The position numbers were made by a program, and so were the translations under genes. From positions 9,750 to 73,749 of the forward strand of contig CAKQBK010000003.1 of assembly GCA_934216155.1 (NCBI GenBank): 64,000 bases of DNA, given 5' to 3'. Source of the DNA: an uncultured Dialister sp. (GTDB taxonomy: Bacteria; Bacillota; Negativicutes; Veillonellales; Dialisteraceae). The notes beneath the pieces were generated by a model. It was not told the origin of the DNA, ran no database searches, and saw only the letters and a program-made list of their open reading frames with translations. Positions 7,317 through 55,825 of this stretch are shown one piece after another (within the stretch, counting starts at the first letter, position 1; every line of letters begins with the position of its first letter).

Positions 7317-8042
7317 ATGATCCAAATCATTCTCATTTCCGGCGGAACGTCTGGCATCGGATTGGCTACGGCGGCTATTGTTGCCAAAGAGGGCTATCGG
7401 CCGGTGCTTTTGGGACGAAATGAAGCACGGGGAAAGGCAGCAGAAGCGAAGGTGCCGGGCAGTGTATTTGTTCCTTGCGATGTGACGAAAACAGAAGATT
7501 GTAAAAAAGCGGTACAAGTAGCAGCTGGGCTGGGGAAGATCACCGGCCTTGTGATTTCTGCCGGGAAGTATGAAGAAAAACTGCTGGAAAATACTACCGA
7601 TGAAGAAATGGAAGACTATTTCGCAGTCAATGTGTTCGGTGCTATGAAATTGACCAGAGAAGTGATTCCTTTCATGAGAGGAACCAAAGGAAGCATTGTC
7701 ACCGTAGCATCTGATGCGGCTATTCAGGGCAATGTACAGTGCAGCCTTTATGGCGCCACCAAAGGGGCCCTCGTGGCATTCACTCGCTCTTTGGCATTGG
7801 AACTGGCCGTAGAGGATATCCGTGCCAACGTGGTATGCCCCGGCGATGTGGATACGCCCCTTTTGGACAACCAACTCCAAACCTATGGCGGCAGTCGAGA
7901 AGAAATGGGCCAGTGGTATCCACTGGGGCGGATTGGAAAAGCAGAAGAAATAGGCGAAGTGATTGCTTTCCTGTTGTCTCCGAAATCGTCCTTCATGACC
8001 GGCGCAGTGATTCCTGTCGATGGGGGATTGACGGACTGGTAA
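7317..8042 (+). CDS. Short-chain dehydrogenase/reductase (SDR)
   Basis: 241 aa. Rossmann glycine motif GGTSGIG at residues 9-15, ISAG in the position of the NNAG motif, catalytic Ser in VASDAA, and YGATK with Tyr145 and Lys149. C-terminal PVDGGL is typical of classical SDRs. An NAD(P)-dependent alcohol or ketone oxidoreductase in the cytoplasm; the substrate cannot be told. It could be related to FabG, but fatty-acid genes are not adjacent. AGGAGGAATAAAAGTTT precedes the ATG. Ends shortly before an RB hairpin that doubles as terminator. Confidence 0.88.
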   Translation: MIQIILISGGTSGIGLATAAIVAKEGYRPVLLGRNEARGKAAEAKVPGSVFVPCDVTKTEDCKKAVQVAAGLGKITGLVISAGKYEEKLLENTTDEEMEDYFAVNVFGAMKLTREVIPFMRGTKGSIVTVASDAAIQGNVQCSLYGATKGALVAFTRSLALELAVEDIRANVVCPGDVDTPLLDNQLQTYGGSREEMGQWYPLGRIGKAEEIGEVIAFLLSPKSSFMTGAVIPVDGGLTDW

Positions 8043-8043
8043 T

Positions 8044-8122
8044 GTAAAGGCAGTTAGAAGTGAAAAGTTAGAAGTGAGAAATGGTAGTAGCGGCGCACAA
8101 ATTATAAAGCGCCGCCTTTTTT
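8044..8122. terminator. Half RB element acting as terminator
   Basis: gttagaagtgaaaagttaga is the RB arm; GCGGCGC...GCGCCGCC followed by TTTTTT forms a terminator for the SDR gene. This shows the RB core can double as a Rho-independent terminator. Confidence 0.65.
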
Positions 8123-8144
8123 GTCTTAGAGATATATGACTCTA

Positions 8145-8600
8145 GCCCAATACGTCATTTCGACCGGTCGTATTTGTGCGAGATGAAACATATGATATGA
8201 AACTGGATGTGTAGGAGAGTGGAGAAATCTCAGTAGCACTAGCGGGAAGGGCTTAAAGAATCAAAGCATAACGGTGAGACAAGATTTCGAGCCATGCGAG
8301 AAAGGCAGCTCTAGGGAAACGCTGATTTAATCAAAGAGTTTGAAATTATATGAATTTTTATCCAAAGCATCGTCAAGAAAATCCTTAAATAGCTTGCTAT
8401 TCGCGAATTTTCTTTCCTCGCTTTGAATAAAAATTCAAGAATAATTTCAAGCCATGATTAAATCAGTGTTTCCCTAGCGAGCTGTTTGATATGTGTCATC
8501 TAGCCCTTATCGCTACTGCTTTGAGATTTCTTCACTTTCCTACACATTGTGTTTTATTACTACTGTATCATTAAGCACAAATACAACCAGTTGAAACGAC
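8145..8600. repeat. RH element nested inside an RD palindrome
   Basis: RD outer arms: tttcgaccggtcgtatttgt on the left and ttgagatttcttcactttcc ... on the right, with cactagcgggaagggcttaa. Between the RD halves, about 8320-8478, lies a complete RH palindrome with ends ggaaacgctgatttaatcaa and ttgaaatgatta-type complement ending atcagtgtttccc. RH is also found alone at 24790-24957. Confidence 0.75.
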
Positions 8601-8749
8601 GATGACGGTTATCGGTACATGCAAGAGAACTGAGTAATAAGCAATTTATAATCTCTAAGGCATAATACAAAAGGCGACGCTTTCAAATTATGTGCGCCGT
8701 TACCACCACTCCTCACTCCTAATTCCTCACTGCATTTTCCGTAAGGAAA

Positions 8750-9035
8750 ATACAAAAAGCCCACACGAAAAACAGATCCCGGACTTGGTTGATGCAAATA
8801 ACCAAGGTACAATCTATTTCTCATGTGGAACTTTCTGAGAAAGGGGAAATTCTTCCCTCGTTTATGCAGTTTTGTACATTGTGAGACCTATGAAATTCAT
8901 AACCCTCACCCCGTTTGAGCAGCTGTGTCCAGCTGGGCCGTTTTATGGATTACTCATTGGGAGGTAGCTTACAGATCTTTCTCGCACTACGTTTTTTTAT
9001 CGGTACCGTGCGTAGCCGATACGGATCTCTTACCT
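8750..9035 (-). ncRNA. Structured ncRNA, paralogue of the RNA at 35856-36112 (class unidentified)
   Basis: Transcribed on the minus strand from a strong promoter at 9042-9070. The 5' domain has nested stems AGGTA/TACCT and AGATC/GATCT enclosing a likely H-type pseudoknot: TATCGG pairs with CCGATA, and CTACG (9011-9015 complement) pairs with CGTAG (8987-8991 complement) across a run of seven A. The loop carries the self-complementary octamer CGGTACCG. The 3' end is a long hairpin ending in GTGTGGGC and TTTTT. About 285 nt with no convincing ORF. A 6S-type RNA is possible, as many Firmicutes carry two, but the 5' pseudoknot does not fit; class is left open. Confidence 0.65.
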
Positions 9036-9041
9036 GATTGC

Positions 9042-9070
9042 ATTGTATCATAGGATCAAATAAAAATCAA
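9042..9070 (-). promoter_or_regulatory. Sigma70-type promoter of the 9.0-kb ncRNA
   Basis: On the minus strand TTGATT (9070-9065), 17-bp spacer, TACAAT (9047-9042). Confidence 0.75.
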
Positions 9071-9125
9071 GCGTTCTCTAGTGTATTTTTTTCGATTGCA
9101 TAACATAGAGATAAAGTGTGTATCA

Positions 9126-9490
9126 AAAGGTTCTGTAGCGATGAGCTGGTTGGAAAAACAGGGAGATGAGATGGGAATCATAGGGTTCTGTAGCGACGAT
9201 ATGTTTAGAATAACATGGAGGTGAGATGTGCATTTTAAGGTTCTGTTGTGCCGAAATTGTTGATGAAAAAGAAAAAAGGTTCCAAATGAATCTATACAAA
9301 GTACGATTCATTTAGAACCTTTTGATAGCGGAAGAATTATTATGTTGGCTAATCGAAAATGGTCTTCCCGAACCCTATGACAGCGGAATCAATTACCATG
9401 TTATCTAATCGGGAAATGGATTTCCAGAACCTTAGCATAGCGGGAATAGTTACTATGTTATCCAATCGACAAACGGCGTCCCAGAACCTT
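9126..9490. repeat. Mirrored tandem array of RI units
   Basis: Three forward units starting ggttctgtagcgatgagc at 9129, 9184 and 9239 (55-bp period) face reverse units whose AACC ends fall at 9319, 9374, 9431 and 9488 (55, 57 and 57 bp). The centre is a hairpin, aaggttccaaatgaatc with gattcatttagaacctt (about 9276-9321). The array stops at the last codons of the dehydrogenase gene. Confidence 0.75.
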
Positions 9491-10437
9491 TACCCCACAA
9501 TGATATTCTTCTGTTTTCCATCGATGAAGCTCTGCAGGTTATCCACCACAATGACGGCTCTGCGTTTCATGGCTTCTTCGGTATCAAAGCCGACATGGGG
9601 GGCCAGGATGGTGTGAGGAGCGGAAAGGAGGGGATAGTCGGCGGGAAGGGGCGGCTCGCCGTCGTATACGTCGATGCCTGCACCGGCGATTTTTCCTTCT
9701 TTCAGCAGGTGGGCCAATGCTTCATTATCGATGACGCCGCCGCGAGCGGTATTGATCAGAATGGCATCTTTCTTCATGAGGGACAATTTTTCTGCATTAA
9801 GCAAGTGGTGGGTGTCTGCAGTCAGTGGCAGATGGACAGAAGCGATGTCAGCGGTAGAAAGTAGTGTATCCAGGTCGGTGTATTCCACGTTGCTGGCTTT
9901 ATGAGAACGGTTGTATCCAAGCACTTTAGCACCGAAAGCATGGGCGATATCAGCCACTCTTTGACCGATGGCACCGGTACCGATGATACCGAAGGTGCGG
10001 TCTTTGATTTCAATGCCCATAAGGCCAGCGTTGTTCTGGCTATTTCTAGTGGCTTGGTCACATTCCTTCAATTTGCGGTACAGAGAAAGAATGAGGCCAA
10101 AGGTGAGTTCTGCCACCGATTCGGTGGAGTAGCCAGCACAGTTGGAAACAGCGATGCCTTTTTCCTGGCAGTAGGAAATATCCACATGGTCCACGCCGGT
10201 GAAAGCCACGCAGAGATAGGTCAGATGGGAAGCTTTTTCGAGGGCTTCTTTTTTCAGTGGATAATTGGCAATGACCGCCAAATCAGCGTTAGCCAGGCGC
10301 TGTCCCAAATCTGTCTGATCCTTCGGCAAGGTGTCGTAGGCGGTGATGGTATAGCCTGCTTTTTCCAAATCGGCTGTCAATTCATGAAGATAGTCCGAAG
10401 AAATACCCAATGGCTGGGAAATAACGATGTTTTTCAT
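9490..10437 (-). CDS. D-isomer-specific 2-hydroxyacid dehydrogenase
   Basis: 315 aa. N-terminal substrate lobe, then the NAD-binding lobe with GIIGTGAIGQR, NTARGGVID with the conserved Arg, GAGIDVYDGEP with the Glu, and APHVGFDT with the catalytic His. Reduces a 2-keto acid to a D-2-hydroxyacid or the reverse; candidates are hydroxypyruvate/glyoxylate, D-lactate or D-2-hydroxyisocaproate type enzymes and the sequence alone does not decide. Cytoplasmic. The ATG at 10437 follows GAAAGAAGG with 6-bp spacing. Flanked by repeats on both sides and so probably monocistronic. Confidence 0.9.
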   Translation of the reverse strand: MKNIVISQPLGISSDYLHELTADLEKAGYTITAYDTLPKDQTDLGQRLANADLAVIANYPLKKEALEKASHLTYLCVAFTGVDHVDISYCQEKGIAVSNCAGYSTESVAELTFGLILSLYRKLKECDQATRNSQNNAGLMGIEIKDRTFGIIGTGAIGQRVADIAHAFGAKVLGYNRSHKASNVEYTDLDTLLSTADIASVHLPLTADTHHLLNAEKLSLMKKDAILINTARGGVIDNEALAHLLKEGKIAGAGIDVYDGEPPLPADYPLLSAPHTILAPHVGFDTEEAMKRRAVIVVDNLQSFIDGKQKNIIVG

Positions 10438-10464
10438 GATATACCTTCTTTCAAACATATTTTT

Positions 10465-15199: not shown

Positions 15200-15727
15200 A
15201 GTCACAGGCGAGGAAGAAAAGAGTACATGATTTGATGACGGCATAGCGAGTCCGGACAGTGAAAGCGGATACGGATAGGACATGGAAGTGCATTTCAGAG
15301 CCAATGAGCTGAACACCATAGGTCAGTAGGCTGTTCGGGAGACGCCCGTTATAGCGCAGGGGTACAGGAACGTATCTTTGGTTATGGAAGTGTAACGATT
15401 GGAGTCAACGAGAGAATTCCTGTTGTGCTCAAAGGTTTCTCAGGTTACTCAGGTTTCTTAAGTTTCTCAGGTTCGTCGAATGAGTAGATACATGCTAGTG
15501 TATTATGGCATATGTTTCTCTTTCGAGAACTATTAGCAACTTGAGCAACCTGAGAAACTTGAGGAACCTAAAACACTGGCGGAATTTTTCAAATTGACAC
15601 TATCCCATAACGGTAGTACCATCCATCCCTGTACCTTCTAAGGTTTGCCGAGTGATCGGCAGATGAATTTGGGTGGAAACACGGCATATCGTCCCAAGAG
15701 AGTGAAAGCTCTCTTGGGATTTTTTAT
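15200..15727 (+). promoter_or_regulatory. T-box riboswitch 2, cysteine (UGC specifier), enlarged by an inserted palindrome
   Basis: Stem I with GGAAGTGCATTTC gives UGC at 15289-15291. GGTACAGG (15361-15368) pairs with CCTGTACC (15628-15635), closing a helix in the stem II/III region; the 259 nt between them contain an RA palindrome. GGGTGGAAACACGG has TGGA at 15674-15677. Terminator ATCGTCCCAAGAGAG/CTCTCTTGGGAT then TTTTT ends near 15727. At about 525 nt it is twice the size of T-boxes 1 and 3. Controls the ABC transporter operon. Confidence 0.9.
15425..15595. repeat. RA palindrome inside T-box 2
   Basis: caggtttctcaggttactca-type 9-mers on the left and aacttgagcaacctgagaaa on the right, with the usual central cgaatgag and gctagtg text. 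Lies wholly between the paired bases that close the T-box helix. Confidence 0.85.
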
Positions 15728-30179: not shown

Positions 30180-30478
30180 GAAGTTAGAAGTGAGAAGTTA
30201 GAAAAGAGACTAGGTTGAAGTAGTAAACGGTTAGCAGTAGGCCGTTGGCGGTACCTTGCATCGTCATTTCGACCGATGGGATTTGTGCTTTATGGTTTAT
30301 CGCTTTTTTTCTACTATGTTAGAAAAAAGTGGAGAAATGTTATGATGCTAGTGAGGCTAGCGTTGATTGGCAGATTCGGGAAACCTGAGCAACCTGAGAA
30401 CCCTGAGTAACTTGAGCAATCTGTAATTTCTAGCGAATTTATACCTACTAACGCAAAACATTAGCAGCATTGAGATAA
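30180..30478. repeat. RB, RD and RA fragments between purN and purH
   Basis: 30177-30205 RB arm; about 30255-30345 half RD (atttcgaccgatgggatttg, aaagtggagaaatg); 30352-30478 right half of RA (cgggaaacctgagcaacctg, then ctactaacgcaaaacattag). The 312-bp gap has no coding potential. Confidence 0.65.
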
Positions 30479-34199: not shown

Positions 34200-35477
34200 A
34201 TGTATACAGATTCTCTCATGGAAAAAGGATTCCGCTATCGGGATGATCGGTTATGGAAAAAGTTAGGGGCAGAGCAGGTCTTTGCTATTACTTTTGATGA
34301 TGGTGAAATTGGATACCTACAGGTACTAGGAAATGTGGGGGAATTCAATGGATTCAATCTGTTCATTGGCAAAGAAGGGGTACATACCATGTACTTGGTG
34401 CCAGGAATGCTTCCGGATACAGCGGATGATTATATTGGTTTCCTTCAAGAAATGGAATTAAAGATGGAGCAGAATCGCATTTCTTTGGATTTGGTGACAG
34501 CTGCTGAATTGGATCCTGAGATTAAGAAGGCAGAATCTGCTTATGCAAAAGCCCATCAGATTACAATGCGAAGAAAACCGGCCTTTTTCGAGGCCTCCCA
34601 TTATATACCGCGTCATACACCTATGATACCTACGGGGAAAGCGGCTGCTTACTTAGAAGAAGCCTTGGATGCGACCCATGCGCTAGCAGAAATGCTGAAA
34701 AATAAAACGCTGAAGGTGAGAGATGTAGTTCGTCCGATTCCAGGAGAGCCAATGTTGTATCTGAAAAAAGAGGGGAACCAGTGGATTCCATCTACGATCA
34801 CAGCCTTTGAAAATGCGGAGCCAGAGTACCCAAAGATTCCTTTTGAAAATCAGGTACTAGCTACGAAAATTAAGACGGACTTGGCAGTTCGGAAGCGTCC
34901 GTCAAAACTCTCGAAAAAGGGCGTCTTACAATGTCTGGTCTTTAGTGTGCCTGCCTCTATTAAAGACCCAGAGATGGAAGGTGCCTATTTCCCATGGCTA
35001 CTGTTTTCTTTAAAAAAGCAGACCATGAAATTTATTAAAACGCCGAAAACGGTCAGAGAGTTAGATGAAGAATTGGTTGAGTCTTTTGCTGAAATTTTGG
35101 TGAAAGACAAGGAAATTCCCTTTAAAATCGAAGCTTTCGGGAAACGGACCTATTGTGCCTTGGAAGATTTTTGCCAGAAAACGGGCATAGAAATTACTCT
35201 TGTGGAAGATGAAGAGGAGGCCAGTGCATTGATTGATGCTGCCGATGAAATGGAAGCTCGTGTGAGAGGGGATAATAGAAATTCTTATGATGAGGAATCT
35301 CAAGTTCGTGCGGTCATGGAACAGTTGGCACGGCTTTCGGATAAAGAATTATTGCGTCTTTCTGACGACCAGAAAGGAATGCTAGAAATGATTGCTCTGA
35401 CTGGAATGATGCCTAAAGCAATGAAACAAAGATTGGCTAAATTGTATCATTGGGAGTTTCCTAGCAATCTTTTCTAA
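34200..35477 (+). CDS. Uncharacterised protein, possibly DUF7309/DUF6930-like
   Basis: 425 aa, soluble, no signal peptide. The N-terminal half has FDDGEIGYLQVLGNVGEFNG, LFIGKEGVHTMYL and RHTPMIPTGKAAAYLEEAL; the C-terminal half has ELDEELVESFAEILVKDKEI and a helical tail ending LAKLYHWEFP. The combination resembles proteins annotated with DUF7309 and DUF6930, but I am recalling layout rather than matching a profile. Function unknown. GGAGGCAGGTT precedes the start. AT-rich upstream text (attattatttcttaagttga) could hold its promoter. Monocistronic between large repeats. Confidence 0.7.
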   Translation: MYTDSLMEKGFRYRDDRLWKKLGAEQVFAITFDDGEIGYLQVLGNVGEFNGFNLFIGKEGVHTMYLVPGMLPDTADDYIGFLQEMELKMEQNRISLDLVTAAELDPEIKKAESAYAKAHQITMRRKPAFFEASHYIPRHTPMIPTGKAAAYLEEALDATHALAEMLKNKTLKVRDVVRPIPGEPMLYLKKEGNQWIPSTITAFENAEPEYPKIPFENQVLATKIKTDLAVRKRPSKLSKKGVLQCLVFSVPASIKDPEMEGAYFPWLLFSLKKQTMKFIKTPKTVRELDEELVESFAEILVKDKEIPFKIEAFGKRTYCALEDFCQKTGIEITLVEDEEEASALIDAADEMEARVRGDNRNSYDEESQVRAVMEQLARLSDKELLRLSDDQKGMLEMIALTGMMPKAMKQRLAKLYHWEFPSNLF

Positions 35478-35577: not shown

Positions 35578-35832
35578 GAGGTAATGTTGTTAAGTTAAGG
35601 ATTGGCGTTAGCAGGTATGATTCCACTAGTAGTGACAGGTTACTCAAGTTTCTAAGGCTTCTCAGGTTGCTCAGGTTCTCCGAATGTGCCGATAGACGCT
35701 AGCGTCATTAGCTCATTCGAGAAACGTGAGAAACCTAAGTAGCCTGAGAAACCTGAGTAACCTTGCATCAGCAGAAATCACCGCATATTTCACTTAACTT
35801 AACAGCATTGCCCGAAGGGGGGGGACTACATA
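35578..35832. repeat. Full-length RA palindrome
   Basis: gtaatgttgttaagttaagg and 9-mer arms aggttactcaagtttctaag on the left; cgtgagaaacctaagtagcc and acttaacttaacagcattgc on the right. Confidence 0.85.
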
Positions 35833-35855: not shown

Positions 35856-36112
35856 AAAAAAAGCCCGCACGAAAAAGAGAATCCATCGAGTACAAATTGC
35901 GCTAAGGCAACCAGGCTCTCTCTTTCATGCGGACTTTTACATCCATGTTTCTTAAGTTGTTGCTCTACATCCTGAAGCCCCAGGGAGGTTCTTCAAGCGG
36001 GTGAACGGTGTGTAGGCACACCGGAGCTCTTATGTATTCTTCTTACCCGACAATTAAGTCCTTGCCAATGTTTTTTGTTCGGCGCCGTGCATTGGCGGTG
36101 TCCTAATCGCTT
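35856..36112 (-). ncRNA. Structured ncRNA, paralogue of the RNA at 8750-9035 (class unidentified)
   Basis: Minus-strand transcript from the promoter at 36119-36148. ATTAGG/CTTAAT encloses a hairpin or pseudoknot in which CCAATG pairs with CATTGG across a loop with the self-complementary CGGCGCCG (36080-36087) and seven A-rich bases. Further helices: CGGGT/ACCCG around CGGTGTG/CACACCG, and CTTGAAG/CTTCAGG with a CCTCCCTGGGG loop. It ends in a long hairpin, GTCCGCATGAAAGAGAG with CTCTTTTTCGTGCGGGC, and TTTTTTT. About 255 nt. Stem sequences differ from the 9.0-kb copy while pairing and the octamer palindrome are kept, which supports a real RNA. A 6S-like RNA is possible; not proven. Confidence 0.68.
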
Positions 36113-36118
36113 ATCTGT

Positions 36119-36148
36119 ATTATATACCATAGAGGATACAAGAGTCAA
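36119..36148 (-). promoter_or_regulatory. Promoter of the 36.0-kb ncRNA
   Basis: On the minus strand TTGACT (36148-36143), 18-bp spacer, TATAAT (36124-36119). Confidence 0.8.
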
Positions 36149-36207: not shown

Positions 36208-36590
36208 GGTTTAAAGTTTCTCAGGTTGCTCAAGTTTCTCAGGTTGCTCAGGTTCTCCGAATGTGCAGATGGATACTAGCGGAATCATCATGGTGTCATT
36301 TCGACCGGTCGTATTTGTGCTGGATGAGATAAATGATATGAAACTGGATGTGTAGGAGAGTGGAGAAATCTAAAAGCACCAGCGGTAAGGGCTTAAAGAA
36401 TCAAATCTATACGGTGAGACGACATTTCGAGGAATGCGAGAGGAACAACCCTAGCGAGTTGCAATGATATGATTCGTCAAGCCCTTACCTCTAGTGCTGC
36501 CAGATTTCTCCACTCAGGAGCGCATCTCATTTCAATCCACCTATGCCATTAAGCACCAATATGATCGGTCGAAATGACGGATACGGTGAT
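36208..36590. repeat. Left half RA followed by full RD palindrome
   Basis: 36208-36275: gtttctcaggttgctcaagt 9-mers ending at tactagcgg. 36290-36590: tttcgaccggtcgtatttgt, ggagagtggagaaatctaaa, caccagcggtaagggcttaa and the complementary half ending gatcggtcgaaatgacgg. Confidence 0.8.
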
Positions 36591-36989: not shown

Positions 36990-38810
36990 ATGAAAAGAGA
37001 AGACATCCGCAATATTGCCATTATCGCTCACGTCGACCATGGTAAGACGACTCTGGTAGATGCTATGCTGAAACAGAGCCACATTTTCAGAGATAATCAG
37101 AAGGTAGCTGAACGTGTCATGGACTCCAATCCACTGGAACGTGAACGCGGCATCACCATTCTGGCAAAGAATACCTCTGTAATGCACAATGGAGTAAAGA
37201 TCAATATCGTCGATACCCCAGGGCATGCGGATTTCGGTGGCGAAGTAGAACGAATCCTGAACATGGTAGACGGCGTTCTTCTTCTGGTAGATGCTCATGA
37301 AGGCCCGATGCCGCAGACCAAGTACGTACTGCGTAAGGCTCTGGAACATAAGCTGAAACCAATCGTTGTTATCAATAAAATCGACCGTCCTGACCAGCGT
37401 ATTTCCGATGTAGAAGGCGAAATTCTGGAACTGTTCATGGAACTGGAAGCAGACGATGACCAGCTGGATTTCCCGCTTCTCTATGCATCTGCTAGAAGCG
37501 GTATCGCTAAGCTTCATATGAATGATGAAGGCAAGAACCTGGACCCACTGTTTGATGCTATCCTGGAACATATCCCATGCCCGGAAGGCGATCCAGATGC
37601 AGGTCTGCAGGTGATGGTTACCACCCTGGAAGCTGATGATTACCTGGGCAAGATTGCTATCGGCCGTGTTACCCGTGGCACTGCTAAACAGGGCATGACC
37701 GTAGCTATCACTGATGGCGAAAAGATTAGAACCGACCATATCGGTGCTCTCTTCAACTGGCAGGGAATGAAACGTACTCCTGTAGATGAAGCTAAGGTAG
37801 GGGACATCATTGCTATGGCAGGTTTCAAAGATATCAATATCGGTGAAACAGTAGCTGATGCAAACAATCCGGAAGCACTGCCGGCTATTCATATCGACGA
37901 ACCGACTTTGTCCATGGTATTCCATGTCAACAAGAGTCCATTCGCTGGCCGTGAAGGGGATTTCGTTACTTCCCGTCACATCCGTGCTCGTCTCTATAAA
38001 GAAATCGAAACCAATGTGGCTCTTCGCGTAGAAGATACCGATACGTCCGATGCATTCAAAGTATCCGGCCGTGGTGAATTGCATCTGTCTGTTCTGATTG
38101 AAACCATGCGTCGTGAAGGCTTTGAATTGGAAGTTTCCAAGCCGCAGGTTATTTACAAAGAAATCAATGGCAAGAAGTGCGAACCACTGGAACGCCTCAC
38201 CATTGAAGTTCCGCAGGAATTCATGGGCGCTGTAATGGAAGGTCTTGGACCGAGAAGAGCAGAAATGATTTCCATGGAAGAACTGGCTGGCTACATGAAG
38301 ATGGAATTTTCCATTCCAGCTCGTGGCTTGATCGGCTTCAGAAATGAACTCTTGACCACCACCCGTGGCACCGGTATCATGTACCATGTATTCCAGGGCT
38401 ATGTACCATACAAAGGCGATATCCCGGAAAGAACCAGAGGTTCCCTGGTTGCCTTTGAATCCGGCACCACCACCGCTTACGGTTTGAACTCCGTTCTTGA
38501 CCGCGGTGAACTCTTCCTGGAACCAGGCGTGGAAGTATACGAAGGTATGATCATTGGTGAAAACTCCCGTGACCAGGATATGGATGTGAACCCATGCAAG
38601 AAGAAACATCTGACCAATACCCGTGCCGCTGGTTCTGATGACGCTATCAAACTGCCGCCATGCCGTAAGTTCACTCTGGAAGGCGCACTGGAATGGATCA
38701 ACGATGACGAACTGGTAGAAGTGACACCAGAAAGCATTCGTATGAGAAAGATGGTCCTCTCTCGCCAGGCTAGATATAAAAATGCAAATGTAAAGAAGAG
38801 CCAGCAGTAA
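36990..38810 (+). CDS. typA: Ribosome-associated GTPase TypA/BipA
   Basis: 606 aa, full length. G1 [10 protein letters not shown]2 region with RERGITI, G3 [13 protein letters not shown]4 NKIDR, G5 SARSG. The C-terminal half carries the EF-G-like domains III and V and the BipA-specific end with [12 protein letters not shown] and [16 protein letters not shown]. Binds the ribosome and assists assembly or stress translation, especially in the cold. GGGGAAAAGGAAAGAA precedes the ATG. Monocistronic with its own promoter and terminator. Confidence 0.96.
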
Positions 38811-38875: not shown

Positions 38876-39565
38876 TTGGTCTCTCAGGTTTCTCAGGCTA
38901 CTGAGGTTTCTCACGTTTTTCGAATGAGCTAATGACGCTAGCGTCTATTGGCACATTCGGGTAACCTGAGCATCCTGAGCACCCTTAGAAACTTGAGTAA
39001 CCTGTTATCATTAGCGGAATCATACCTAGTCATGCAAATCCTTAATTTCATGGCATTGCTTTACTCAGGGGCGCATCTCACTTCATGACTGCTATAATAG
39101 TAACCAATAATAGGATTGGTCGAAATGACGGCTGCGGCTAGCGATACATTCGAGAACCCCTTAGAACCCTTAGTACCATTAACACAGAAATAATCATTGT
39201 ATAGTTCCTTAACAGTGTTTCCCTAGGGAAAATACTGCCACAGTCCCCTAATCCCTAGGGCCTAGCTACTAGCTACCAGTCACGAGTCACCAGTTACTAA
39301 CAACCAAGGTGTATAATAGAATCAAGTGTAAAATAAGGTGATTTGAAAGTCATGTTGTTAAGTTCATAGGTAAGATTCCACTAGAGGTTATAGGTTGCTT
39401 AGGTTTCTCAAGTGGCTAAGGTCTCTCACGTTTCTCGAATGTGCCAATACATGCTAGGGGTATCATCTCGTTCTAGGAACCTGAGCAACTTAAGCATCCT
39501 GAGCAACCTGAGAAACTTTGTCTCAAAAGAAATCATCCTATGTTTTACTTACCGTAATAGCATTG
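38876..39565. repeat. Two RA palindromes with RD and RF fragments between
   Basis: 38876-39056 RA (ctcaggtttctcaggctact; acctgagcatcctgagcacc). 39060-39135 half RD (gattggtcgaaatgacggct). 39235-39300 RF text (agtcacgagtcaccagttac). 39352-39562 second RA (gcttaggtttctcaagtggc; aacctgagcaacttaagcat). The 775-bp gap holds no other recognisable gene; an in-frame extension of the next gene through the RA arm is not coding. Confidence 0.75.
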
Positions 39566-40193: not shown

Positions 40194-40456
40194 TAGCACA
40201 GGTTACTCAGGTTGATGTAGGACAGGGAACTCAGGTTGCTCAGGTTTCTCAGGTTTCTCAAGTTTCCCGAATGAGATGATAACGATAGCGTCTATGGGCT
40301 CATTGCAGAACCTTGAGAGCCCTCAGAACCTTGAGAACCCTCAGTACCCTCAGAACCTTGAGAACCCTTAGCACCTTGAGAACCCTTAGCACTTTGTAAC
40401 CAATATCGAAATCATATCTACTGACGCAAATCCGTAACTTAACAGCATTGAGTTAC
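40194..40456. repeat. RA palindrome with extended right arm
   Basis: ggttgctcaggtttctcagg on the left; a long right arm of ccttgagaaccctcagtacc-type 9-mers repeated about ten times (40310-40395), then ctgacgcaaatccgtaactt and aacagcattgag. The arm expansion is one-sided. Confidence 0.8.
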
Positions 40457-43862: not shown

Positions 43863-44098
43863 AAAAAACACATCCCCAGGGATGCATTCGTATGTGAAAT
43901 CTCTGCATTCGTCTCGGTTTTGACAATCCAAGCGATATAATATTGGAGGTATACGGCTCATTTCTTTGTGAAGAGATACGTCGATACAGCTCAGCTGATA
44001 CTGCTCGATAAAACTCATTCCGTCAAAGAAAGGCACACTGCGGAGATTTCTTAGGACTCCCAAGGGATATCCCTGAAACAACAGCAGGACACCTGTCG
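43863..44098 (-). ncRNA. Candidate small RNA with promoter and terminator
   Basis: Minus strand: TTGACA (44133-44128), 17-bp spacer, TATTCT (44110-44105), then about 235 nt ending in ATCCCTGGGGAT with TTTTTT. Inside, GAAATCTCcGCA pairs with TGCaGAGATTTC, TTTCTTTG with CAAAGAAA, and ATCGAgCAG with CTGtATCGA, giving a long rod. An open frame of 86 codons from a TTG covers the same stretch without an RBS, so a decayed gene is the alternative. Confidence 0.42.
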
Positions 44099-55299: not shown

Positions 55300-55825
55300 C
55301 TATGGGTAATGCTGTTAAGCTAAGGATTTGAGTTAATAGATATGATTCCGCTAGAGATTATAGGTTGCTCAGGTTTCTCAAGTGGCTAAGGTCTCTCACG
55401 TTTCTCGAACGTGCCAATACACGCTAGCGTTATCATCTCATTCGGGGAACCTGAGAAACTTGAGAATCCTGAGCAACCTGAGAAACTTTGCCATAAAAGA
55501 AATCATCCTATGTTTCGCTAACCTTATTGTAGCATAGACTGGCTTTCTCTCGATAAATTTGTTTCTATATGATAATATATATAAGAATTATTGGGGATGT
55601 AAATCGTTGTTAGTTATTAGTTGTCTGTTATCGGTTTATGCTCCTGGCTCGTGTAGCACATTTCGCACAAAAGCAAAGCCTTATTGGTTTAAGGTTTGGG
55701 GGAGGGAATACTGATCAAACCTTAAACCCTAAACCAATGCCACTTTCGTCAAGGCAATTTGTTCACCAACGGACTTGGCACGTAAACCCAACAACCAACA
55801 ACCAACAACCAACAACTAATCCCAG
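55300..55825. repeat. RA palindrome followed by RE palindrome
   Basis: 55303-55525 RA (gtaatgctgttaagctaagg, gttgctcaggtttctcaagt; aacctgagaaacttgagaat). 55605-55825 RE (gttgttagttattagttgtc, attggtttaaggtttggggg; aaaccctaaaccaatgccac, caaccaacaaccaacaacta). No gene in the gap. Confidence 0.8.

Follow-up and report, generated by a model that had tools for sequence, protein, structure and literature searches.

Few natural RNAs are known to act as homodimers (PMC7357161), and the best bacterial examples, OLE, ROOL and GOLLD, are very large (PMC12286853). In OLE (bridge B3) and GOLLD (bridge B8), symmetric kissing loops are supported by palindrome switching in evolution (PMC12286853). The main texts of three genome-wide non-coding RNA discovery papers (PMC8632094, PMC6429828, PMC11109978) do not name Dialister; the Negativicutes or Veillonella motifs noted in the former two lie upstream of genes, and the third mentions neither Dialister nor its relatives. 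The main text of a further study with thousands of human-microbiome candidates (PMC8040213) is also without Dialister, while its supplements could hold the RNA described below as an unnamed candidate. A literature search at the level of titles and the openings of abstracts found no Dialister structured RNA of such kind.

Two RNA genes and their copies in Dialister

The window, by which we mean the whole 64 kb stretch of DNA analyzed, is a Dialister-type chromosome segment with a GC content of 44.8% that carries PurH, PurD and TypA genes, and its TypA is 94% identical to that of Dialister succinatiphilus. Two structured RNA genes, called W1 and W2 here, were located in it with the following promoters.

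35856..36112, minus strand: W1, structured RNA gene, copy 1, about 257 nt (match to covariance model R1; fold z −2.91)
8753..9035, minus strand: W2, structured RNA gene, copy 2, about 283 nt (match to R1; fold z −4.92)
36119..36148, minus strand: W1 promoter, TTGACT (36143-36148), 18 nt, TATAAT (36119-36124); 11/12 consensus, strong
9042..9070, minus strand: W2 promoter, TTGATT (9065-9070), 17 nt, TACAAT (9042-9047); 9/12 consensus, moderate, with TG before the −10 box

W1 is intergenic between a plus-strand DUF7309/DUF6930 gene (ending at 35477) and typA (starting at 36990), and W2 between a plus-strand SDR gene (ending at 8042) and a minus-strand 2-hydroxyacid dehydrogenase gene (9490-10458). 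Judged from spacing, transcription would start near 36112 for W1 and probably near 9035 for W2. An earlier reading made from the sequence alone (the sequence-only reading) had given both genes a strong promoter, which holds for W1, while that of W2 is only moderate. Promoter-like sites in the two RNA regions do not exceed shuffle expectation (1 versus 4.3 expected and 2 versus 3.5 expected). What lends weight to the −10 box is its constant spacing: in eight of the nine copies described below, W2 included, it lies 6-7 nt ahead of the conserved 5’ end, with the sequence TATAAT in six of these eight, TACAAT in W2 and CATAAT in L096. W1 is the exception in spacing, its TATAAT being only 2 nt ahead of the matching AGAT.

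Several other features of the window were observed around these genes. The SDR and 2-hydroxyacid dehydrogenase genes flanking W2 (7317-10458) have their best matches in Dialister-group genome G013 about 195 kb apart, which places W2 at a site of rearrangement between the two genomes. The W2 promoter is immediately preceded by three tandem copies (9102-9266) of a 55-nt unit containing GGTTCTGT. A 9-nt-periodic repeat of the CTCAGGTTTCTCAGG type gives 44 matches in the window (up to two mismatches) against 0.17 expected, frequently as inverted pairs and with clusters that flank W1 on both sides; its sites include 1845-2065, 15430-15563, 30384-30416, 35643-35757, 36220-36252, 38883-38997, 40197-40262 and 55368-55482, among others. 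A pan motif (RF01749) lies on the minus strand at 43905-44007 (39.1 bits versus a gathering score of 36.2).

Seven further copies of the RNA were found in three Dialister-group genomes, with three in D. succinatiphilus (G001), three in Dialister sp. UBA1703 (G008) and one in G013. A DNA search of 12 family genomes with W1 matched five of them at E <=0.1 in six places, four of which are true copies (L082, L083, L086 and L087); the short matches L084 and L085 were judged by eye not to be copies. At the four true copies, which lie in three genomes, the match was a 23-24-nt piece around the bulge of helix P3. W2 as query gave 13 short matches in six of the 12 genomes (best E 0.15). Covariance model R1 was then built from the seven copies outside the window only, covering the 5’ domain in 126 positions. 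In the 64 kb window, searched up to E 10, R1 reported only W2 (8908-9035, 41.8 bits, E 6.5e-10) and W1 (35995-36109, 23.9 bits, E 7.6e-5), with E-values that are rough because of a short calibration. Model R2, comprising the R1 copies plus W2 and leaving W1 out, found W1 with 28.0 bits (E 8.3e-4) in 593,076 bases, where the sole other match besides W2 had an E of 7. W1 was kept out of R2, and of the eight-row alignment A5 that contains W2, because its loop comes out of place in a full-length MAFFT alignment as well as in the alignment produced by the model itself. By sequence comparison, W1 and W2 are thus diverged paralogues of one structured RNA, and the claim of a pair of paralogous structured minus-strand RNAs is borne out by a window-independent model that finds exactly these two.

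Within the family, the RNA was found in three of the 12 genomes; G013, searched nearly whole (2.40 of 2.41 Mb), holds one copy, and the model search found none in G002. Weak R1 matches in G002, G014 and G006 (E 0.014, 0.40 and 0.51) were rejected by eye. The loop pattern with up to one mismatch gave a single match in 11 genomes (L081 in G011). In Negativicutes, the bulge motif (up to one mismatch) gave 10 matches in six of 380 genomes, the seven true copies in three genomes among them, and matches L088, L089 and L093 were rejected by eye because they are without the hairpin. R2 matched only G001, G008 and G013 among 61 genomes of the order, a scan run with stricter filters, and only G001 among 40 genomes of the phylum. 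Diverged copies like W1 could be missed because the first look of these scans passes on limited candidates. A position shared at typA was rejected: in the 1.5 kb upstream of typA in D. succinatiphilus and Dialister sp. UBA1703, no RNA was seen by eye, and the model matched nothing in L001-L006, L012 and L017. A phage or plasmid origin was rejected, as phage sequences gave three 27-30-nt matches for W1 (E 0.3) and none for W2, plasmid sequences matched neither the W1 region nor W2, and L083 only once, over 29 nt (E 0.07), and two pattern scans of IMG/VR gave zero matches. The RNA family is apparently restricted to the genus Dialister.

The copies lie at different loci. Those outside the window occupy five kinds of locus, adjoining an SRP54-type GTPase gene (read as ftsY) together with a CobN-type gene (L082, L083), or lying near the gene for ribosomal protein S15 (L095, L096), ribonucleotide reductase (L097), a solute-binding protein (L087) or a helix-turn-helix protein read as a transposase (L086), and none of these neighbors matches those of W1 and W2. 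Because the copies adjoin different genes, the RNA is likely trans-acting. In eight of the nine copies, the first gene downstream that matches a protein family runs on the strand opposite to the RNA (L086 was not judged), as called directly for W1, W2, L083, L087, L095 and L097 and by the same or a near-same protein for L082 and L096. A riboswitch or other cis-acting leader was rejected because of this gene orientation. Between the RNA and the next matched gene are short unmatched frames of 60-92 aa, some of them on the strand of the RNA.

Conserved fold and the palindromic loop octamer

The copies outside the window share one order of parts, in which a TATAAT-like box and then AGATGAGA precede the hairpin that bears the palindrome and the A-run, and the CATAAGAG bulge and finally a long terminator come after it. 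The fold scheme consists of P1, an internal loop, inner helices and P2 closing a 19-nt loop, followed by P3 with its bulge, P4 and the terminator P5. These parts lie in the window as follows.

36050..36110, minus strand: W1 5’ hairpin, P1 GCGATTAGG/CTTAATTGT; P2 GCCAATG/CATTGGC (36090-36096 / 36064-36070) closes the 19-nt loop
36071..36089, minus strand: W1 19-nt loop CACGGCGCCGAACAAAAAA, octamer CGGCGCCG at 36080-36087, then AACAAAAAA
35998..36049, minus strand: W1 P3 helix CGGGT/ACCCG with conserved bulge GAATACATAAGAGCTC (36024-36039) and apical hairpin (36006-36023)
35971..35997, minus strand: W1 P4 hairpin of the predicted fold, loop with CCTCCC
35856..35934, minus strand: W1 P5, long terminator hairpin (35863-35934) ending CGTGCGGGC, then T-run
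8962..9035, minus strand: W2 5’ domain, P1 AGGTA/TACCT, inner helix, P2 GCTACG/CGTAGT (9011-9016 / 8986-8991) around the 19-nt loop
8992..9010, minus strand: W2 19-nt loop CACGGTACCGATAAAAAAA, octamer CGGTACCG at 9001-9008, then ATAAAAAAA
8936..8955, minus strand: W2 P3 conserved bulge GAGTAATCCATAAAACGGCC
8882..8908, minus strand: W2 P4 hairpin of the predicted fold
8753..8831, minus strand: W2 P5, long terminator hairpin (8759-8831) ending CGTGTGGGC, then T-run

The helices covary. In A5, 94.0% of the cells pair and 15 of 31 base pairs carry two-sided changes, against none of 500 shuffles and 1 to 3 in slid controls, with the fold having been hand-drawn from these same sequences and the alignment fitted to it. 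This support depends on the comparison with W2, since in A3, the seven-row alignment without W2 and W1, two-sided changes fall to three of 31 pairs, a count that 62 of 500 shuffles equal or exceed. P1 is AGATG/CATCT, with the variant AGGTA/TACCT in W2, and the predicted folds of L096 and of the open form of L095 are without P1 as drawn. The P3 bulge reads CAUAARA in all nine copies and contains CAUAAGAG in eight; a short reading frame in it (Asn-Thr or -Pro, then stop) was dropped because it follows from the bulge motif itself. CCTCCC, a Shine-Dalgarno complement, occurs in P4 of W1 (35971-35997) and of L087 and is by eye missing from the other seven P4s. Full-length W1 and W2 fold better than 200 of 200 shuffles (z −2.91 and −4.92), much of which the terminator hairpin supplies, and z ranges from −1.18 to −5.74 across copies. 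For the first 130 nt, z is between +0.15 and −2.68, close to shuffles, and predicted folding energy alone is weak evidence for structure in the 5’ domain.

All nine copies have a loop of 19 nt and a closing stem with 5/5 Watson-Crick pairs, which in P2 of W1 is again 5/5 with yet another sequence. The octamer occupies loop positions 3-10 with the A-rich tract directly after it, in the same place in every copy. It occurs in four forms, CGGCGCCG (W1), CGGTACCG (W2), GAGGCCTC (G013) and GTGGCCAC (six copies), and is perfectly self-complementary in 9/9 copies, while the other 8-nt frames of the 29-nt hairpin are palindromic in none; the hairpins were compared ungapped by script because MAFFT put gaps into them. 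Three of the four symmetric pairs of the octamer vary, both sides always changing together, and one is constant. The palindrome has thus been kept through changes. Under a random-substitution model, keeping it through 2, 2 and 6 changes has probabilities of 0.048, 0.048 and 0.0052 (product about 1e-5), an argument that rests on about three evolutionary steps because one octamer is common to six of nine copies, and permuting octamer columns among the four types left all of them palindromic in 253 of 200,000 trials.

Much of what the sequence-only reading had said of the two RNAs survives this comparison. The self-complementary 8-base core of the shared loop motif is present at 36080-36087 and 9001-9008, the bases of the stem change and still pair (GCCAATG/CATTGGC in W1 versus GCTACG/CGTAGT in W2), and compensatory change in both stem and octamer, which it had put forward, agrees with four octamers that are all palindromic and P2 stems that differ and pair nonetheless. 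A long 3’ terminator hairpin followed by a T-run, also claimed for both RNAs, is present at 35863-35934 and 8759-8831, and a simple terminator scan of W1 and W2 listed neither of them. The seven A's that it had counted in each loop are found in W2, whereas W1 has six (AACAAAAAA).

Within the 64 kb window, the loop motif without mismatch occurs only in W1 and W2; with up to three mismatches there are five window matches, a number that 10 of 100 shuffles also attain. A descriptor of palindrome, stem and A-run is unspecific, with dozens of unrelated matches in 1.26 Mb and 166 records, each true copy being listed several times, in 2.59 Mb, whereas adding the downstream CATAA motif confined the matches to the RNA family and three unrelated places (L146, L153 and L158). 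Given that palindrome, stem and A-run alone are frequent by chance, what counts is the recurrence of the octamer at one place in a homologous RNA.

A proposed kissing homodimer and competing explanations

We consider it reasonably probable that W1 and W2 represent a free-standing, trans-acting RNA of the Dialister lineage, about 255-300 nt in length, that forms a kissing homodimer via its loop octamer. Transcription of the RNA would begin at a promoter of its own and stop at its long terminator hairpin, and its 5’ hairpin would present the 8-nt palindrome in the 19-nt loop. Two RNA copies could then pair loop to loop through the octamer, giving a symmetric kissing homodimer in which the octamer helix would stack on P2 through the 2-nt 5’ linker, while the 9-nt A-rich 3’ linker would cross the 8-bp octamer helix in the minor groove with A-minor contacts, a geometry reasoned from general knowledge of RNA structure. 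Such an arrangement would account for the conservation of both the linker length and its A's. Contacts with a protein or a target RNA may be made by the P3 bulge and by the P4 loop, which is variable. Octamer self-duplex energies of −13.0 to −16.5 kcal/mol are compatible with such pairing, and the kissing dimers that the sequence-only reading had thought possible gain support as a possibility from the 9/9 palindromic copies. On this evidence, dimerization through the loop is the most likely reading of the octamer, and the RNA probably works as a pair.

The octamer might in addition serve as an identity code, with each lineage or paralogue carrying a self-complementary octamer of its own and so pairing with its like in preference to a diverged paralogue within one cell, yielding separate homodimers with the A-rich strand clamping the helix. 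Duplex energies are −16.5 kcal/mol for W1 with W1, −13.0 for W2 with W2 and −8.6 for W1 with W2. We hold this extension to be doubtful, as the three copies found in G001 share one octamer, and so do the three in G008. If the homodimer is real, a compact bacterial RNA of this size (255-300 nt), which has one to three copies in a genome and an eight-base self-pairing loop that has stayed palindromic despite repeated changes, would offer a small, tractable system for the role of RNA dimerization in bacteria, and an RNA family absent from Rfam 15 would be present in a gut and oral genus.

The main rival is a base-pairing sRNA of the Hfq type, with or without dimers, because Hfq is present in the three carriers; it was found in four of five genomes tested, including G001, G008 and G013. 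In such an RNA, the A-rich tract and U-tail would bind Hfq and the CAUAAGAG bulge or a C-rich P4 would bind mRNAs, with the palindrome being secondary. A free-standing gene with a strong terminator is the usual layout of an sRNA, as seen here, and CCUCCC in the P4 region of W1 and L087 would suit pairing with mRNAs; however, the other seven copies are by eye without CCUCCC in P4, and G002 has Hfq although no RNA copy was found there. Since this explanation leaves both the palindromes kept through change and the constant 19-nt loop unexplained, we regard it as rather unlikely. Recognition of the octamer by a protein dimer, which would bind it as RNA or as a DNA operator close behind the promoter, appears improbable. 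A two-fold symmetric protein would fit the perfect 8-bp dyad that all copies carry at about +26 to +36 of the transcript, but a sequence-specific protein is expected not to tolerate a dyad in which only one of four symmetric pairs is constant, whereas the hairpin around the dyad and the length of the loop are constant. Among the family genomes tested for Hfq, D. micraerophilus (G005) gave no match, and the four others have one.

Half of the octamer could instead pair with a segment of its own RNA, as an intramolecular switch or a pseudoknot. In five of nine copies (L083, L086, L087, L095 and L097) the isolated 5’ segment (62 or 76 nt) does fold somewhat better using part of the octamer, so that keeping it open costs 0.3-2.7 kcal/mol, and the minimum-energy fold of full-length W2 also pairs part of it. 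By contrast, for W1, W2, L082 and L096 the minimum of the isolated segment is the open loop, and its energy is kept when the octamer is forced open. The partners are short and differ between copies, none of the four distinct octamers has a complementary site longer than 5 nt elsewhere in its own RNA, and the two-fold symmetry would go unexplained, making this alternative very improbable. A palindrome of neighboring loop bases cannot pair with itself inside a single chain, and the same pattern served to support the symmetric kissing loops of OLE and GOLLD (PMC12286853). The pseudoknot of the sequence-only reading is therefore unsupported, whereas palindromic octamers with no own-RNA partner above 5 nt support a symmetric kissing homodimer.

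A diverged 6S RNA (RF00013), which the sequence-only reading had named as its nearest idea, would likewise be bacterial and free-standing, measure a few hundred nt and have a promoter of its own. 6S RNA forms a long rod that has a large central bubble and is closed where its 5’ and 3’ ends pair, and the predicted folds of W1 and W2 differ in having separate 5’ and terminator hairpins, with ends that are not paired into one long rod. Moreover, 6S scored above the Rfam cut-off in seven of eight genomes examined (none was found in G008), and two carrier genomes have a separate 6S gene apart from the RNA copies (C1:863910-864092 in G001 and C1:893764-893943 in G013). With W1 and W2 giving no 6S match even at E 10, we set this idea aside as extremely improbable.

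Comparison with known RNA classes

None of the nine copies was assigned to an Rfam family at the gathering threshold, including 6S, OLE, ROOL and GOLLD, with permissive matches staying below threshold, and ARAGORN detects neither a tRNA nor a tmRNA in the window. The sequence-only reading had been unable to match the pair to tmRNA, SRP RNA, RNase P or a known riboswitch, and had named an Rfam assignment as what would speak against it; no such assignment occurred.

OLE RNA is about 600 nt long. Many GOLLD RNAs exceed 800 nt (PMC12286853), while the Dialister RNA has about 255-300 nt. raiA/ModT RNA is a structured Bacillota RNA in a similar size class with a sigA promoter motif, but its model consists of two pseudoknots and eight helices (PMC11706538), and the Dialister RNA is without an Rfam match to it. 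The retroviral dimer initiation loop forms a kissing dimer through a hairpin-loop palindrome with flanking purines (PMC7357161). Its palindrome, however, has six nt and belongs to a viral genomic RNA, whereas the palindrome of the Dialister RNA measures eight nt, belongs to a bacterial RNA gene and is followed, within its 19-nt loop, by a long A-rich linker on the 3’ side. The likeness is one of device only.

The closest resemblance in device is with OLE and GOLLD, structured bacterial RNAs whose loop pairs with its counterpart on another copy and changes from one palindrome to another in evolution (PMC12286853). The Dialister RNA shows the same mark of a symmetric loop, with four different octamers that are palindromic in 9/9 copies, which means that it would work alike and is not a sign of membership. 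Its palindrome is 8 nt in length, whereas theirs are tetra- or dinucleotides (PMC12286853), and it differs from both in that no further intermolecular contact was identified and no Rfam match was obtained. Taken together, the Dialister RNA is a new family that probably shares one device, the palindrome-switching kissing loop, with OLE and GOLLD.
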